Shown here piece by piece: positions 19,238 through 28,689 of a stretch of 64,000 bases of DNA. This DNA is from an alpha proteobacterium SCGC AAA536-G10. Its GTDB lineage: Bacteria; Pseudomonadota; Alphaproteobacteria; Puniceispirillales; Marisalimonadaceae. Positions within the stretch are counted from its first letter, which is position 1, and every line of letters begins with the position of its first letter. The notes beneath the pieces are model-generated. The model searched no databases. It was not told where the DNA came from and saw only the letters and a list, made by a program, of their open reading frames with translations. The DNA lies in NCBI GenBank assembly GCA_000384615.1, contig ARQU01000009.1, positions 25,831 through 89,830 on the forward strand. The letters are read 5' to 3'. The position numbers and the translations under genes were made by a program.

Positions 19238-20063
19238 GCTTATCTGGTCCTTTATCTAAACGCCATACAAAACCTGAATTTCCTTCGTTTGGAAAAAATT
19301 TTCTTAATAGTGGATCATGACCAGGTATTACCAGTTCGTCCTTTGAAGCTAACTTTCTGATGGTTTTAAAACCATTGAGCATATCTTCAAGATCTACAAC
19401 AATCGGAAAAGGTTTACCTGTGAGAAAATTTTCATAAAAGTGAGTGGCATCAGATGCTAAACACATATATCCGTTTTCAGTTTTAACTCTTACTGACTGC
19501 AATCCTCTTGAGTGTCCTCCAATAAGGTGAGTGGTTACTCCAGGTTGAATTGCTCCAATTCCATTATAAAATATAACTCTTCCTGAAAAAACATTTTTTA
19601 CCATATGGCATACATGTTCTCCAGTGAAAGGCATTTTTATTGTCTCGTGACACATACAAGGTCCAGTTGCATACGCCATTTCTGTTTCTTGCAAGTGAAA
19701 CTTTGCATTAGGAAACTCAATTAATCCCCCTGCATGATCATAATGTAAATGCGTTATAATAACGTCAGTTACTTGACTGGCATTTATATTGATTGCTTTA
19801 AGAGCCTCAGATGGTGATCTATCAATTGGCCTATTTCTTCTTTTTGCTTCTTCGTAATCATAACCAGTATCAATAATAATAATATCTTTGTCTGATTTAA
19901 GGACCCATATAAAATAATCAATTGTATGAGCTTCGTGGGAATGATCATCAAATATGAAACTCTCTTTTCTAGTCCTGTCCGTTCTTTCTGCATATTTTAA
20001 AGCATATACTTCCCATTTTTTTTCTAAAACTGTATCCACTTTAATTTCTCCTTTGACAATCAA
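19224..20063 (-). CDS. MBL-fold hydrolase, AHL-lactonase-like
   Basis: HLHYDHAGGL metal motif, IIIDTGYDYEEAKRR, GHSRGLQSVRV, ASDATHFYEN. Confidence 0.82.
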   Translation of the reverse strand: MIVKGEIKVDTVLEKKWEVYALKYAERTDRTRKESFIFDDHSHEAHTIDYFIWVLKSDKDIIIIDTGYDYEEAKRRNRPIDRSPSEALKAININASQVTDVIITHLHYDHAGGLIEFPNAKFHLQETEMAYATGPCMCHETIKMPFTGEHVCHMVKNVFSGRVIFYNGIGAIQPGVTTHLIGGHSRGLQSVRVKTENGYMCLASDATHFYENFLTGKPFPIVVDLEDMLNGFKTIRKLASKDELVIPGHDPLLRKFFPNEGNSGFVWRLDKGPDKPMIF

Positions 20064-21019
20064 ACTTCTTCTAGTCTATCGGTGGCTGGAGGGGGTGTTG
20101 GGCTAATATTAGATATTAAATTATAAGTTTCTTGATCTAAAGAAATTTCCACTGAGTCTAGTGATGGTTTTAATTGTTTTAAGTTTCTTGCACTTATAAT
20201 AGGTGCAGTTATAGCATCATTATATGATACCCAAGCAACAGCTAAAGCAATTGGGTCATAATCTAAATCGTTAGCTAAATTGACAAGTGAATGAGCTACG
20301 TCGTACATCCAATTTTGACCATATCTTTTTTTATATTTAGAATTATCGTGCAGTCTACCCAAACTATTTTTATTAGATGAATTAACTGAACTATATTTTC
20401 CAGTGAGAAGTCCACCACCCAATGGACTATAGCTAATAACGCCAATATTTTCAGTTTTGGACATAGGAAGAATTTCGACCTCAGCTTGTCTTTTAACTAT
20501 GTTGTACATAGGCTGAAGAATATCAATTGACGGGAACCCATTTTTTTCCGCAACCAACTGCGCTTTCATAACTTGCCAAGCAGAAAAATTTGAAGCACCT
20601 AATTGAAAAAATTTTCCTTCTTCTCTAAGTTTTTGAAGTGTTTCAAATGTTTCTTCTAATGGGACATTGTCATCCCAATGATGTAAGAAAAAAACATCTA
20701 CATAGTCTTGCTTTAATCTTTTAAGACTTTCTTCTAACTGTGATCTTATATTTTTACCACTAGACCCACCAACTGATCCGGCCTTAGTAATTAAAATTAT
20801 CTTATCCCTTTCTTCTTTAATTAAATTACCAAGTATTACTTCTGACTTACCTCCCGTATATACAAAAGCAGTATCAAAGAAGTTTATACCTCTATCACGA
20901 CATGCTTCATACATTTCTTGACTATCTTTTTCGTTTGCTCCGTCACCAAATTGCATAGTACCAAAACATAACGATGAGTTTTTTAGATTATTAGGTCCAA
21001 ACTCTCTTATCATTTTCAT
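20060..21019 (-). CDS. Aldo/keto reductase
   Basis: LCFGTMQFG, INFFDTAFVYTGGKSEVILGNLI, LGASNFSAWQV; 4-bp overlap with downstream MBL gene. Confidence 0.88.
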   Translation of the reverse strand: MKMIREFGPNNLKNSSLCFGTMQFGDGANEKDSQEMYEACRDRGINFFDTAFVYTGGKSEVILGNLIKEERDKIILITKAGSVGGSSGKNIRSQLEESLKRLKQDYVDVFFLHHWDDNVPLEETFETLQKLREEGKFFQLGASNFSAWQVMKAQLVAEKNGFPSIDILQPMYNIVKRQAEVEILPMSKTENIGVISYSPLGGGLLTGKYSSVNSSNKNSLGRLHDNSKYKKRYGQNWMYDVAHSLVNLANDLDYDPIALAVAWVSYNDAITAPIISARNLKQLKPSLDSVEISLDQETYNLISNISPTPPPATDRLEEV

Positions 21020-21032
21020 ATAACAAAACCTC

Positions 21033-21806
21033 TTAATTATTCTTAAAATTTCTCATCCAAGTAAGACCCGCTTCAGTAGTAGTCTTTGGTTTATACTCAG
21101 CTCCAACAATACTTTTATATCCAGCTTTGTATATTTCGGGAATAATGTAACTAAAGTCTAATTCCCCACTATCTGGTTCTGCTCGATCCTGTACTGATGC
21201 TATTTGGACATGACCAATAAAAGGTAAATTATCTTTAAATCTTTTAAGTACATTGCCTTGATTTATTTGAACATGGTAAAAATCAAACATAATTTTAACA
21301 GTATCTGATCCAACTAGTTCACAAATTTCTCTTGCTTGCTCTACTTTAGTTAAAAAGTATCCTGGATTATCTTTTAAATTTAAAGGTTCAATAACTAATC
21401 CTATACCACTATCTTTTAGTAAGTCCTTAGCAAACTTTAAATTATCAATAAAAGTCACGAGAGATTTTGTTGATAAATCCGTCACACCAGCCATAGCATG
21501 AATATTTTTTGATTTAATAACTTTAGCATACTCAAAAGCTTGAATTATAGCATCTCTTGCTTCAGAAATTCTTGATGGAACTGCAAGTAAACCATTATCA
21601 CCTTCCTCAATATTACCCTTTATAGTATTTATACCCATCACTGGTAAATTAACTTCATCTAAAGCTTTTTTTATATCTTGTGAGTCAAATTGATATGGAT
21701 ATTGAAATTCAACAGCATCAAATCCATATTCTTTTGCTTTATAAATAGCATCTATTTGGGAAAATTCATTCCATAAAAGACCTAAATTTGCAGAAAATTT
21801 ATACAT
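21033..21806 (-). CDS. Hydroxypyruvate isomerase / OtnI-like TIM barrel
   Basis: KFSANLGLLWNEF..., FDAVEFQYPY, NLKDNPGYFLT, IMFDFYHVQINQGN, GHVQIASVQDRAEPDSGELDF. Confidence 0.85.
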   Translation of the reverse strand: MYKFSANLGLLWNEFSQIDAIYKAKEYGFDAVEFQYPYQFDSQDIKKALDEVNLPVMGINTIKGNIEEGDNGLLAVPSRISEARDAIIQAFEYAKVIKSKNIHAMAGVTDLSTKSLVTFIDNLKFAKDLLKDSGIGLVIEPLNLKDNPGYFLTKVEQAREICELVGSDTVKIMFDFYHVQINQGNVLKRFKDNLPFIGHVQIASVQDRAEPDSGELDFSYIIPEIYKAGYKSIVGAEYKPKTTTEAGLTWMRNFKNN

Positions 21807-21810
21807 AATA

Positions 21811-22458
21811 TTAATCCCATTCTACATTAAATTTTTTTATAACTGAGTTTATTTGAGATTCATCTAATGCTTTTGCATCTGCTCCTTTTAAGATTAGAGC
21901 TAATTTTGCAGTAGCTTCTAATTCTTCAATAGCATTAACTGAAGATTCTAAGTCTTTGCCTGAGACAACGGGTCCATGGTTAGCTAACAGAACTGCTGAT
22001 CTTTTACCAGCAAGATCTTTGATTGCATCCCCCATAGCAGGGTCACCAGGCACAAAGAAGGGAAGTAACTTAACTTTCCCTAACAGCATTATTGAGTATG
22101 GTGTATAAGATGGTAATACATTATCTTCATCTATTCCAGGTAGCATAGATAAAGCAACAGAATGAGTAGAATGAAGATGAACTACAGCACCAGATTTCAT
22201 ACCTCTTGTTTCATAAAAAGCTTTGTGAAGGGGTAACTCCTTAGTTGGTGATAAAGACCCTATGAATTGACCTGACTTTGTCACTTTAACTATTTCATTT
22301 GGTTCAAGCCTTCCAAATGAAGATCCTGAGGGTGTAACTAGTATATCATCATTATCTAAACGAACTGAAATATTACCTGTTGATCCATGAGTAATACCCC
22401 TATCAAACATTGAAGACGCCAAAGTACAGATTTGTTCTCTTAATTTATTTTCGTTCAT
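21811..22458 (-). CDS. Class II aldolase/adducin family, OtnC-like
   Basis: GNISVRLDNDDILVTPSGSSFGRL, VVHLHSTHSVALSML, NHGPVVSG. Confidence 0.85.
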   Translation of the reverse strand: MNENKLREQICTLASSMFDRGITHGSTGNISVRLDNDDILVTPSGSSFGRLEPNEIVKVTKSGQFIGSLSPTKELPLHKAFYETRGMKSGAVVHLHSTHSVALSMLPGIDEDNVLPSYTPYSIMLLGKVKLLPFFVPGDPAMGDAIKDLAGKRSAVLLANHGPVVSGKDLESSVNAIEELEATAKLALILKGADAKALDESQINSVIKKFNVEWD

Positions 22459-22489
22459 TTATAAAATATAACCTATATATATATTAATT

Positions 22490-22966
22490 TCAGTAACCAA
22501 ATAATTGGTATAAAATACCTATAGACAAGCCAATTACCACATGACTGCCAATAGCTAAGGAACAAGATAAAAAAGGTGATGGTGTTTTTAATCCCAGAAA
22601 ACCTTTACCCAAAACAGGCATGAAGAAAAACCAAGGAACAACAACACTTAGCAAACCAAAAACAAATCCATTAAAAATTGAAGCATTACAAATATTATAT
22701 TTTAGTAACATAAAGAAAAATATTGAATACATAATCGCAATAGTGTAATGAACAGCCCATCCAATTTTTAATTCATTTTTAATTGGGGGCACTTCTTCGA
22801 TTATTGGATTATATATTTTTGCTTTTGATATTAATAATATATACCATCTTCCAACAATAGCCCAGTCTGATGGATTTATGTCATACATAATTTTTAATAA
22901 TCTCTGCCAAATATCCATCACAAGACATGAAATAATCCCAATAATTACAATGTTGAATATTTCCAT
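22490..22966 (-). CDS. DUF2938-like membrane protein
   Basis: MDIWQRLLKIMYDINPSDWAIVGRWYILL, GWAVHYTIAIMYSIFFFMLL. Confidence 0.65.
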   Translation of the reverse strand: MEIFNIVIIGIISCLVMDIWQRLLKIMYDINPSDWAIVGRWYILLISKAKIYNPIIEEVPPIKNELKIGWAVHYTIAIMYSIFFFMLLKYNICNASIFNGFVFGLLSVVVPWFFFMPVLGKGFLGLKTPSPFLSCSLAIGSHVVIGLSIGILYQLFGY

Positions 22967-23109
22967 TAAAAGCCCTTTTTATATTTAAATTTTTATAGCA
23001 ATGAACTCTTTAACAATATAAAACAATATAAGGGATCTTTAAAATATATCTATTGTATTTTATTTTTTTGATGAACTTTGAAACTATAAAAACTAGAGGA
23101 GAGAGATTT

Positions 23110-23844
23110 ATGGCTAATTTTAATGGACAAACTGCAGTAATTACTGGAGGAGCACAAGGTATTGGTTTAGCGACTGCAAGGAGTTTTATTAACGATGGCT
23201 GTGAAGTTATGATTTGGGACATAGATGAGAAAAAGGGTGTGGAGGCAGCAAAAGAGCTAAATTGTCATTTTTTAAAAGTTGATCAAACTAATAACAACTT
23301 AGTCGAAGAAGTTACAGAAAAAACTCTTAAACAAATAAATAAAATTGATATTCTAGTTTGTAGCGCAGGTATTGCTGGACCAACTTATTCAACTTGGGAT
23401 TATCCTGTTGAAGAATGGTCAAGAGTATTTGACGTAAATGTAAATGGTGTATTTTACTGTAATAAGCATGTTGTAAAATCAATGCGTGAAAAAAATTATG
23501 GTAGAATTATCAATATAGCCTCAATTGCAGGCAAAGAAGGTAATCCTAATGCTCCTGCATATTCCGCATCTAAAGCAGCTGTAATAGGTTTAACAAAATC
23601 TCTTGGTAAAGAAACAGCAGATAAAGACATCGCTGTTAATTGTATAACACCAGCTACTGCTAAAACGAGAATTCTTGATCAAGTATCACAGGAATTTATT
23701 GATTATATGATTTCAAAAATTCCAAGAAATAGATTTGTCACCGTCGAAGAAGTTGCAGCTCTTATTACGTTTCTAGCAAGTAAGGAAAATAGTTTTACCA
23801 CTGCAGGTGTCTTTGATATTTCAGGTGGTAGAGCTACTTATTAA
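23110..23844 (+). CDS. SDR family oxidoreductase
   Basis: TAVITGGAQGIGLATARSF, YxxxK at YSASKAAVIGLTKSL; start chosen at MANFNGQ after AGAGGAGAGAG. Confidence 0.9.
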   Translation: MANFNGQTAVITGGAQGIGLATARSFINDGCEVMIWDIDEKKGVEAAKELNCHFLKVDQTNNNLVEEVTEKTLKQINKIDILVCSAGIAGPTYSTWDYPVEEWSRVFDVNVNGVFYCNKHVVKSMREKNYGRIINIASIAGKEGNPNAPAYSASKAAVIGLTKSLGKETADKDIAVNCITPATAKTRILDQVSQEFIDYMISKIPRNRFVTVEEVAALITFLASKENSFTTAGVFDISGGRATY

Positions 23845-23846
23845 TT

Positions 23847-23951
23847 GGTGAGGATTTTTAGGAGATCCTCTGCACCTTAACTCAAAAACTAATAATCGGG
23901 GGAGGAACTTATTAGCTAGAATTAGTACAATTAAACGGGGGAGTTTTATTG
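23847..23951. ncRNA. Candidate structured RNA: three consecutive hairpins (strand unresolved)
   Basis: Hairpins 23847-23876, 23889-23915, 23928-23951 with loops containing AGGAG, GGGGGAGGA, GGGGGA on + (CUCCU, CCUCCCCC, UCCCCC on -). Confidence 0.35.
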
Positions 23952-24083
23952 AACACTCTCATTAATTAAGTTTTTTTCGGAATTTGTCTTGTGATAATAA
24001 AAATTAACTTTAAAAGCTTTAAATCTGTTATATATTTGTGCAAAAAACTTTCTTTTATAATTTTTGTTTAATAATTAATCATT

Positions 24084-24686
24084 TTAAACTTCTGTATTAA
24101 GTTCCATTACTGCTGAAAGTATTACAACTGCGAATAAAGAAAGTCCCATTCCCCTATTTACCCAAAGCTGCTTGTTAGATGTTAATGACCATCTTTTTAG
24201 ACTTATCCCTAACCACAGCCAAAATAAATGTATAGGTATCCAAATTGAATTTACTATAATAAATTTAGTTAGAATCTCAACATCATATGAAGCCATTCCA
24301 AGTGAGAGCACTACAAACAAATGTCCTTGGACCACATAAGCCTTTGGATTGACAAATTGTAAAAAAATTCCTTCATATAATTTTGGAGCTTTAAAACTTT
24401 GTTTAAAACCAGTTTTATTTTCAGATGTAGCTATACGCCAAGATAAAAAAGATAAGTAAGATAATGATAAAAATAAAAAAGTTAGTTCAACTCCTTCAAT
24501 TTCAAACAAAAACTGTTTAAAGCCTAGCACAACTAGTAATGCTACCCCATTAGTTCCAAAAAACAACCCAATGAGATACATCATTCCAACTTTCCATCCA
24601 AAACCAGCACCAACACCAGCTAAAGAAAGTACACCTGGACCAGGAGTAACCATCATTAAAAAACTAATAATTATGTAAGCAATCAT
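24084..24686 (-). CDS. LysE/RhtB family amino-acid exporter
   Basis: MIAYIIISFLMMVTPGPGVLSLAGVGAGFGWKVG; QFVNPKAYV. Confidence 0.88.
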   Translation of the reverse strand: MIAYIIISFLMMVTPGPGVLSLAGVGAGFGWKVGMMYLIGLFFGTNGVALLVVLGFKQFLFEIEGVELTFLFLSLSYLSFLSWRIATSENKTGFKQSFKAPKLYEGIFLQFVNPKAYVVQGHLFVVLSLGMASYDVEILTKFIIVNSIWIPIHLFWLWLGISLKRWSLTSNKQLWVNRGMGLSLFAVVILSAVMELNTEV

Positions 24687-24772
24687 TTAAATCTATAAAT
24701 AAAATCTATACCTTGGCTCAATAGGATTATTTTTGAAAATATAATTATAATAAGATTTTGATAATCACATTA

Positions 24773-26185
24773 TTATAGAAAAATCTTTCCTGGGTTCATT
24801 ATTTTTTTTGGATCAAAAGCATTTTTAACTTTTTTCATAAAGTCTACAGCGTTTCCTAATTCCTTCAACATATATTTTCTTTTGCCTTGTCCAATACCAT
24901 GCTCTCCGGTACATGTACCATCCATTCTAATAGCCCTTTCAGATATTCTGATTAAAAAACTATCTAGTTTGTCTAATTCAGTCTTGCTGTTTTTATCAAT
25001 TAGTAATGCAACATGAAAATTTCCATCACCTGCATGACTTACTATTGGACCTATCAATTCGTTCTTTTCCATGTCTTCAATCGTTTCTGTAATACAATCA
25101 GACAATTTGGAAATTGGCACACAAACGTCTGTTGAATAAATTTCTGCCTCAGGCCTTACTGACCTACATGACCAATATGCATCATGCCTTGCTTTCCATA
25201 ATTTGTTTCTTTCTTCATTATTAGAAGTCCATTCAAAATCGTTACCACCAAAATCTGATGCTATTTCACTAAATAATTCTGATTGCTCTTTTACAGATTT
25301 TTCACTGCCATGAAACTCTAATAGTAATAAAGGCGCTTCAGGAAGGTTTGTCTTAGAATAACTATTAACTGCCTTTACTTGAGCAACATCTAAAAACTCT
25401 ATCCTTGCTACTGGTATTCCAGCTTGTACAGTCATTATAACTGCATCAGTTGCATCCTTAACTGATGGAAAACTTACTCTACCTCCTGCAATAACTTCCG
25501 GGATACCATAAAGCTTTAGTGTAATTTCTGTAGTTATACCTAATGTCCCCTCTGAACCAACCATTAACCGAGTTAAATCATAACCTGCTGAACTTTTTCT
25601 AGCTTTATTTGCTGTTTTTATTATTTGACCATCAGGAGTAACAACCTCAAGAGCAATTACATTATCTTTCATTGTTCCATAACGCACTGCATTTGTTCCA
25701 GAAGCTCGAGTAGCTGTCATCCCACCAAGTGAAGCATTTGCACCAGGATCAATTGGAAAAAACAATCCAGTATCTCTTAAGTGGGTGTTTAGTTGTTCTC
25801 TGGTAACCCCAGGTTGAACAACAACTAACAGATCTTCCTGATGTACAGTCAGGATCTTATTCATATTATTCATATCAATAGAAATTCCGCCATAAGGAGC
25901 ATTAAGATGTCCTTCAAATGAAGAGCCAACACCAAAAGGAATTATTGGACATTTAAATTCATTACAAATTTTTACAACTTTTTGAACATCTCCTTTGCTC
26001 TCGGCAAAAACAACGCCATTGGGTAATTCTGATTCATGAATAGTCATCGTATGAGTATGTTGTTCAAGTATACTTTTACTACTAGAGAATTGTTGCCCAA
26101 ATTCTTCTTGAATTTTTTTTATACATAAATTGATGCTCTCTTTATCATAATCCTCGTCAGACCATACAGAAACACTACCATCCAT
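24773..26185 (-). CDS. FAD-binding oxidase / D-lactate dehydrogenase (GlcD/Dld-type), paralog A
   Basis: PFGVGSSFEGHLNAPYGGISIDMNNMNKIL, RASGTNAVRYGTMKDNVI, GTCTGEHGIGQGKRKYM. Confidence 0.9.
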   Translation of the reverse strand: MDGSVSVWSDEDYDKESINLCIKKIQEEFGQQFSSSKSILEQHTHTMTIHESELPNGVVFAESKGDVQKVVKICNEFKCPIIPFGVGSSFEGHLNAPYGGISIDMNNMNKILTVHQEDLLVVVQPGVTREQLNTHLRDTGLFFPIDPGANASLGGMTATRASGTNAVRYGTMKDNVIALEVVTPDGQIIKTANKARKSSAGYDLTRLMVGSEGTLGITTEITLKLYGIPEVIAGGRVSFPSVKDATDAVIMTVQAGIPVARIEFLDVAQVKAVNSYSKTNLPEAPLLLLEFHGSEKSVKEQSELFSEIASDFGGNDFEWTSNNEERNKLWKARHDAYWSCRSVRPEAEIYSTDVCVPISKLSDCITETIEDMEKNELIGPIVSHAGDGNFHVALLIDKNSKTELDKLDSFLIRISERAIRMDGTCTGEHGIGQGKRKYMLKELGNAVDFMKKVKNAFDPKKIMNPGKIFL

Positions 26186-26206
26186 TTTAAAAACCTTTTC
26201 TATAAT

Positions 26207-27619
26207 TTATAAAATTTTTCCTGGGTTCATTATACCCTTTGGATCAATTTCTTCTTTTATTAATTTCATGAAATTAACAGCAGGACCTAATTCATCGACT
26301 AAGTATTGTTTTTTACCCTGCCCTACTCCATGTTCTCCTGTACATGTTCCATCCATACTAATGGCTCTATGAGCTAATCTCTCTAAAAACCCGTTTGCAA
26401 CATCAACTTCTTTTTGTATCTTAGGATCAATCATTAGCTGAACATGAAAATTACCATCACCAACATGACCAACAATGGGTCCAAACAAATTATTTTTTTC
26501 CATGTCATCTATCGTTTCAGTAATACATTCTGACAATCTTGATATTGGCACACAAACATCCGTAGCAATATAATCCGCATCTGGCCTGCAAGCTTTAACA
26601 GCATAATAAACATCATGCCTAGCCTTCCAAAGTCTATTTCTTTCTTCAATATTTGCATTCCACTCAAAGTTATCACCACCAAAATCTTTGGAAATTTCGT
26701 TAAACAACTCGGATTGTTCTTGCACAGAAGATTTACTTCCATGAAACTCTAATAATAATAATGGTGACTCAGGTAAGTTTAACTTTGAGTAATTATTTAC
26801 AGCTTTAACCTGCGCAATATCTAATAGTTCTATTCTGGCAACTGGAATTCCAGCCTGTATAGTCATAATCACAGCATCCGTTGCATCCTGAACAGACGGA
26901 AAAGTACATCTACCAGCTCCAATTTCTTCAGGAATACCATAAAGTTTAAGTGTAATTTCAGTTATTACACCTAACGTACCTTCAGATCCAACAATTAATC
27001 TTGTCAAATCATATCCAGCAGAACTTTTTCTAGCTCTACTAGCCGTATTTATTATTTCTCCATTTGGCATTACAACTTCTAATGAAATTACATTATCTTT
27101 CATAGTTCCATAACGAACGGCGTTGGTTCCAGAGGCTCTTGTCGATGCCATTCCTCCAATTGAGGCATTGGCACCTGGGTCAATAGGGAAAAACAAACCC
27201 GTATCTCTAAGGTGTGTATTTAGTTGTTCTCTAGTTACACCTGGTTGAACAACAACAGTTGAATCTTCAGGGTGAACTTCAATTATATTATTCAGATTAT
27301 TCATATCTATGGAGATCCCACCAAAATTAGCATTTAGATGACCTTCAAGGGAAGAACCTACTCCAAAAGGTATTATGGGACATCCATATTCATGGCATAT
27401 TTTTACTGTTTTTATTACATCCTCTTTGTTGTAGGCAAAAACAACACCATCAGGCAATTCTGGTTTATGAACTGTTGTTGTACTTGTATGTTGCTCACGA
27501 ACTGATTTAGAAACTGAGAATTGCTGCCCAAACTCTTTTTTTAATGCTTCTACCGCACTATTTGTGTTGTACTCAAATTTTGAGTAAAAAGAGCTGTTTT
27601 TAACATCTAAAATTGTCAC
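26207..27619 (-). CDS. FAD-binding oxidase / D-lactate dehydrogenase (GlcD/Dld-type), paralog B
   Basis: Same motifs as adjacent paralog; HVGDGNFHVQLMID, TCTGEHGVGQGKKQYL. Confidence 0.9.
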   Translation of the reverse strand: MTILDVKNSSFYSKFEYNTNSAVEALKKEFGQQFSVSKSVREQHTSTTTVHKPELPDGVVFAYNKEDVIKTVKICHEYGCPIIPFGVGSSLEGHLNANFGGISIDMNNLNNIIEVHPEDSTVVVQPGVTREQLNTHLRDTGLFFPIDPGANASIGGMASTRASGTNAVRYGTMKDNVISLEVVMPNGEIINTASRARKSSAGYDLTRLIVGSEGTLGVITEITLKLYGIPEEIGAGRCTFPSVQDATDAVIMTIQAGIPVARIELLDIAQVKAVNNYSKLNLPESPLLLLEFHGSKSSVQEQSELFNEISKDFGGDNFEWNANIEERNRLWKARHDVYYAVKACRPDADYIATDVCVPISRLSECITETIDDMEKNNLFGPIVGHVGDGNFHVQLMIDPKIQKEVDVANGFLERLAHRAISMDGTCTGEHGVGQGKKQYLVDELGPAVNFMKLIKEEIDPKGIMNPGKIL

Positions 27620-27753
27620 TAATTAACCTCACATAAGTTTTTCTCAATATCGTATTAATATATTTCAAAATAAAGATTGAGTAAATTATTACATTTTAAT
27701 AAAAATTATATTTGTTATAGTTTTGAACTTCTTGTTAGGAAGCTTACAAAAAA

Positions 27754-28689
27754 ATGTATAATAAAGCTATTTTTTTAGGTGAATGCATGATTGAACTCAA
27801 TGGAGACATTTCTTCATTGGAAAATAAAAGTTCAAAAATGCAAATTAATTTTGGAGGCGACACTTATAATTCTGCAATATATTTTTCAAGACTAGCAAAT
27901 AATAAAACTAATACTTTCTATTCAACTGTACTCGGGAATGACAGTTTTTCTAGAAAAATGATTTTAAGATTTAAAAATGAAAAAATAAAATGTGATTATG
28001 TAAGAACTGATGGAAAAAACCCTCCTGGTTTATATTCAATAGAAATTAATGAAATAGGTGAAAGAAGTTTTTCTTATTGGAGAGATCAATCACCATCGAG
28101 ATACATTTTTTTAGGGTCAAAAGGAAAAAAACTAGCTAGAGAAATAAAAAATGCAGATGTTTTTTATTATACTGGTATTTCTGCCGGTATTCTTGATGCA
28201 AAACAAAAAAAGGATTTAATACATATAGGATCCACTGCAGTTACATGTGGATTTGATTTTAATTATAGGTCCCAATTACATAATGATAAGAAAGTGTCAC
28301 AATTATTATTTAAAAAAATTAGTGAAAATGTAGATATCAACTTTGTATCTTTTGATGACGTTAAAGAGTTATTTGATATTAAAAATCCATATGAAGTTTT
28401 TGAAATATTAAATGACAAAAAAAATCTAATTCTTATAAGATACAAGGACTCAATTATTTTTAAAAACAAACAAGAAATAATAAAAACTGTTAAAGTTCAT
28501 CATGGAGAGGTGGTTGATACAACAGCGGCAGGTGACGCATTCAATGGATCTTTCCTTGCTTTAATAAATAACGATAAAAATATTTCAATAGAAGAAAATA
28601 TATTAAAGTCCCACTCTGTTACTAGAGAAGTGATAAAGCATAAAGGCGCTATTATTTCCAATAAAAATATGCCTAAAATAAATACTTAA
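27754..28689 (+). CDS. kdgK: PfkB family sugar kinase, 2-keto-3-deoxygluconate kinase-like
   Basis: FLGECMIELNG, NFGGDTYNSAIYFSRL, VDTTAAGDAFNGSFLA. Confidence 0.82.
   Translation: MYNKAIFLGECMIELNGDISSLENKSSKMQINFGGDTYNSAIYFSRLANNKTNTFYSTVLGNDSFSRKMILRFKNEKIKCDYVRTDGKNPPGLYSIEINEIGERSFSYWRDQSPSRYIFLGSKGKKLAREIKNADVFYYTGISAGILDAKQKKDLIHIGSTAVTCGFDFNYRSQLHNDKKVSQLLFKKISENVDINFVSFDDVKELFDIKNPYEVFEILNDKKNLILIRYKDSIIFKNKQEIIKTVKVHHGEVVDTTAAGDAFNGSFLALINNDKNISIEENILKSHSVTREVIKHKGAIISNKNMPKINT

Follow-up and report, generated by a model that had tools for sequence, protein, structure and literature searches.

NfeR1, of the alpha-r14 (cuckoo) family (Rfam RF02344, ar14), has three hairpins, each with an unpaired CCUCCUCCC, variable stems and no dependence on Hfq, and it silences mRNAs at the ribosome-binding site through redundant motifs (PMC10746234). 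The alpha-R8 RNAs (RF00519; MmgR and SisA-D) also pair with Shine-Dalgarno (SD) sequences, through a core that is single-stranded and is followed by a Rho-independent terminator. In Caulobacter, the alpha-R8 sRNAs SisA-D are in turn sponged via their core, UUUCCUCCCU, by CrfA, a separate sRNA that acts through Hfq on all four (PMC12559287). Sponges of the CsrB/RsmZ type carry repeated GGA loops.

The stretch of DNA analysed here (the window, 64,000 nt) contains an element that can be compared with each of these. The original prediction had described three inverted repeats at 23847-23951, flanked by convergent SDR (plus) and LysE (minus) genes, as a candidate regulatory RNA. Every coordinate and letter of the repeats was correct on re-check, and both genes were located, converging on the element. 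The name LysE is that of the original prediction, for a gene with no NCBIfam match. The features are as follows.

23110..23844, plus strand: SDR-family oxidoreductase gene; its stop (23842-23844) abuts H1.
23845..23956, minus strand: whole element, a candidate ~110-nt anti-SD small RNA.
23847..23876, minus strand: hairpin H1, third hairpin of the proposed minus-strand RNA, near-invariant.
23889..23915, minus strand: hairpin H2, with a stem that varies with compensation.
23928..23951, minus strand: hairpin H3, first hairpin of the proposed minus-strand RNA, with a stem that varies with compensation.
23963..23990, minus strand: putative promoter position, AAGACA-N16-TAATTA in the window, weak.
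24084..24686, minus strand: LysE-type exporter gene (stop 24084-24086), upstream of the element on that strand.
24773-26185 and 26207-27619: two GlcD-like genes, with the LysE gene downstream of both.

On the plus strand, the hairpins read GGTG-AGGAT(TTTTAGGAG)ATCCT-CTG-CACC (H1), CTAATAA(TCGGGGGAGGAAC)TTATTAG (H2) and CAATTAAAC(GGGGGA)GTTTTATTG (H3), with AGGAG, GGGGGAGGA and GGGGGA in their loops. The corresponding minus-strand loops are CUCCUNAAA (CUCCU, within GAGGAU/AUCCUC), UUCCUCCC(C/U) and UCCCCC or CUCCCC.

The element was found by covariance model in 32 of 136 genomes of the SAR116 order, in two genera of one family. It occupies one locus per genome, the exception being G028, with the element on two contigs. 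A multi-copy repeat was consequently rejected, as the triple-loop pattern also matches only this locus, with zero matches for the reversed-pattern control. When 84,980 species genomes (GTDB 220) were scanned for the exact pattern, 30 loci were returned, titled SAR116 or uncultured Alphaproteobacteria/Pseudomonadota MAGs; the SAR116 titles of homologous contigs place the window in a genome of that cluster. GGGGGAG itself is neither rarer nor commoner than chance in the window (two occurrences, 1.7 expected). With blastn, 28 genomes of the genus matched query positions 1-120, with identities of 77-99% and a downstream part that was weaker in most of them. At every inspected locus, the element lies between SDR and LysE. 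H1 is 93-100% identical over 28 nt in most members, while fourfold sites of the SDR gene reach only ~40%; L022 scores 0.50 in an ungapped count, since its H1 carries one inserted base. Compared with clade 2, the larger clade, the window is ~40% identical at SDR fourfold-degenerate sites, ~63-79% over the element and ~93% over the 28 nt of H1. In ten genomes of the genus that lack the element, no SDR match was found at E<=1e-60 save in G029, where the match is just 56% identical. SDR orthologues in genera g11 and g13 (73-80% identity) have different neighbours and no element, so a fixed 3'UTR of this SDR family is not supported.

The spacer on the LysE side of the element contains two further conserved stretches. 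One, at 24065-24083 and immediately following the LysE stop, is an imperfect palindrome of 15-17 nt present in 31 of 31 aligned loci (TGATTAAAATTTAATCA in L051/L054); it is possibly a protein-binding site or an end signal. At ~24025-24050, on the minus strand, the block TTTTTTGCNCAAA..(GGCAAATATATT) is strongly conserved in clade 2.

Folding of the single genome is of modest significance (z of -2.6, -1.2 and -3.5 for H1, H2 and H3; -1.3 on plus and -2.5 on minus for the whole region), and the question of chance is settled by comparative evidence. The H2 stem is CTAATAA/TTATTAG in the window's clade and GCTAATAAT/ATTATTAGC in L047. In L051/L054, the whole stem is replaced (GACAATAAT/ATTATTGTC) and the G/C-run loop is kept, and the H3 stem of L025 (TTGTAG/CTACAA) is likewise replaced around a kept loop. 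In the model-fitted alignment, 94.5% of 678 cells pair. Changes on both sides were counted in 13 of 23 pairs, against 2.8 in shuffles and reached by 0 of 500 shuffles, although misregistered rows (L051/L054, together with some arms of L022/L025) inflate this count and some related ones. With L051/L054 left out, Watson-Crick pairs fill 605 of 644 cells, and clear-cut double changes persist at columns 48/99, 54/92 and 118/135. The core pairs of H1 do not vary across members and are therefore uninformative on pairing. RNAalifold missed H2 and H3 on the MAFFT alignment because that alignment was misregistered, and the covariance-model alignment was used instead.

Judged by this comparison of sequences, the three hairpins are not due to chance, and the element is real: a structured RNA that has been conserved. 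Its description as a candidate regulatory RNA is thus borne out by how strongly it is conserved and by compensatory changes, with the covariation among relatives falling in the H2 and H3 stems and the loops fixed. The other origin that had been considered, in which the G-rich blocks are leftover ribosome-binding sites of a deleted gene, fails because stem covariation and loop invariance place stems and loops under joint selection. A mini-ORF (AUG-UAU-UAG) in the clade 2 H2 loop was also rejected; it is absent as a conserved feature in the window's clade, and the indels are not in threes.

Which strand is used is a separate matter, and four computed lines (folding z, open loops, wobble changes and a promoter-like block) favour minus. 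Across members, the mean folding z is -3.5 on minus versus -1.8 on plus, with minus lower in 27 of 29. The three loops have unpaired probabilities of 0.96/0.99/0.96 on minus and 0.57/0.84/0.83 on plus, where loop 1 is half paired and H2 and H3 fail to form reliably in several members. The H2 of L024 has 13 bp with two G-U pairs on minus and two A-C mismatches on plus. Strand-specific wobble changes comprise ~7 minus-type events (L001, L025, two in L024, clade 1, L015 and L010) versus 2 plus-type events (L021 and L007), a small count (one-sided binomial ~0.09 by our own arithmetic) from an alignment built with the plus-strand model, with the misregistered H3 of L025 left out and events grouped by eye. 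In clade 2, the minus strand carries a conserved -35/-10-like block, ATGACT-N17-TATAAA (with variants), that ends ~25 nt before the H3 loop and would place the transcript start just before H3. The window equivalent is weakly sigma70-like and was not listed by a simple promoter scan; the block is weak in the clade of the window and missing from the most distant members.

Our reading of the element is consequently that of a minus-strand, ~110-nt anti-SD sRNA with three hairpins, to which we give about an even chance of being correct. The analysis shows conservation, covariation, loop invariance, better folding on minus and the absence of CsrA and Hfq; we infer transcription of the minus-strand RNA, its ends (5' near 23956, 3' near 23845), its targets and repression by it. 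The element would be a SAR116 gene for a structured non-coding RNA, with the minus strand transcribed in the direction of SDR. The start would lie just before H3, set either by a dedicated promoter or by processing at the 3' end of glcD-glcD-lysE. The three consecutive hairpins of this RNA would keep the C-rich anti-SD loops (UCCCCC, UUCCUCCC and CUCCU) open to base-pair with the ribosome-binding sites of several mRNAs, which would be repressed in translation with no need for Hfq. Since SDR leaders carry CAGGGGGUG in clade 2 and AGAGGAGAGAG in the window, SDR itself could be a target. Target prediction across the window's 57 ORFs gave generally low and indecisive pairing scores. Counting against the minus strand are the wobbles of L021 and L007, the patchy promoter block, the tight abutment on SDR, an inner UUUU/GAGA of H1 that can pair on plus only, and the lack of a terminator after H1.

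Terminator-like sites were indeed found at the element on neither strand. A T7 run had been put forward as a plus-strand terminator; the run is present at 23971-23977, but neither it nor the adjoining stem is conserved, and therefore no conserved terminator is recognised there. A further explanation is that the hairpins are ordinary 3'-end structures of the two converging mRNAs, SDR and LysE, which they would stabilise or terminate without acting in trans. The location between converging genes, the stability of H1 and the failure to find another separator or terminator would all fit such a role. However, there is a U tract on neither strand, and mRNA ends need neither a nearly invariant 28-nt H1 nor G/C-run loops that stay invariant when a whole stem is replaced. 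We consider this explanation improbable.

The original prediction had also likened the plus strand to CsrA/RsmA-sequestering RNAs, and GGA in three hairpin loops does recall CsrB/RsmZ-type sponges. However, a search for CsrA (PF02599) found csrA absent from 41 of 41 genomes of the order, mostly incomplete but 15 of good quality, with positive controls found. Sequestration of CsrA is contradicted by this result, and we regard it as very nearly inconceivable here. In the same kind of search, Hfq was found in 0 of 40 genomes of the genus (mostly incomplete, 5 of good quality), again with positive controls found.

The other comparison made in the original prediction, with anti-SD sRNAs on the minus strand, is the better-supported one, although assignment to the cuckoo type by sequence does not hold. 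On paper, the element would act like alpha-r14/NfeR1: it has three hairpins with anti-SD motifs in unpaired loops on minus, stems free to vary, a length of ~110-120 nt and a predicted independence from Hfq. It differs in that its loops are three different C-rich sequences rather than identical copies of CCUCCUCCC, which is absent, and in having no terminator U tract. We do not file it as a member because of these loops and because no Rfam model matches. At the gathering threshold, no Rfam family was found in the window, and cmscan of 23830-24090 at E<=10 (Rfam including ar14) gave chance matches only. An RF02344 search of genome G000 gave no match, and control genomes likewise gave none.

As for alpha-R8, the minus H2 loop of clade 2, AUUCCUCCCUAG, is nearly identical to the core UUUCCUCCCU. 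In the element, however, the core sits in a hairpin loop, there are three loops rather than one core, no terminator follows, the locus is another one and no Rfam model matches. Read from plus, the same hairpin has a G/A-rich loop, as in CrfA: the clade 2 loop AGGGAGGAA perfectly complements UUCCUCCCU within the alpha-R8 core, the site used by CrfA (PMC12559287). This raises the possibility of a plus-strand RNA in the SDR mRNA 3'UTR, or processed from it, whose SD-mimic loops sponge a C-rich anti-SD sRNA. H1 starts at most a few nt from the SDR stop in all members, which makes a 3'UTR role natural, and H1 is more stable on plus than on minus. RF00519 is also carried by other SAR116 families (f2-f4). 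Yet the genomes of the element's genus g1 gave no RF00519 match at E<=0.1, with f2-f4 positive, nor did the window; a few weak matches occur in f1, at least one of them (L169) an ordinary terminator matched by chance. Thus, the sponge would be without a partner here. Poorer plus-strand folding, with H2 and H3 unreliable in several members, and the g11/g13 SDR orthologues without the element also count against it. We rank the minus-strand sRNA as most likely and this plus-strand sponge next, as unlikely but deserving of attention. A combination, in which both strands are used with the same base pairs, the minus sRNA and a complementary SDR 3'UTR sponge, seems to us a slim prospect; SDR transcription would then titrate the sRNA via loop-loop pairing with the three SD-like loops.

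An alpha-R8 partner was also sought in the window's genome. There, TTTCCTCCCT occurs three times, never in alpha-R8 form, and the candidate was rejected as no terminator follows any of the three sites. Across genus g1 (G000-G036, G066-G068), neither Hfq nor RF00519 was found, unlike the setting of CrfA. With alpha-R8 present in other SAR116 families, this points to an apparent loss of a widespread sRNA in the genus. For SAR116, a lineage abundant in the ocean, no small-RNA work was found in the literature searched. Though apparently without Hfq and alpha-R8, the genus retains an RNA with the build of a multi-loop anti-SD regulator. Confirmation of our reading would show that such regulation can survive the lack of Hfq, in a lineage whose sRNA biology is untouched.

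Finally, the element lies within a sugar-acid catabolism cluster (20060-28689) that includes a 3-oxo-tetronate 4-phosphate decarboxylase (over cut-off), a 2-oxo-tetronate isomerase-like protein, an aldo-keto reductase, two GlcD-like oxidases and a KDG-kinase-like PfkB protein. At 23845-23876 on the minus strand, H1 reads GGUGCAGAGGAUC-UCCUU, which is similar to the 16S rRNA 3' end, GGAUCACCUCCUUU.
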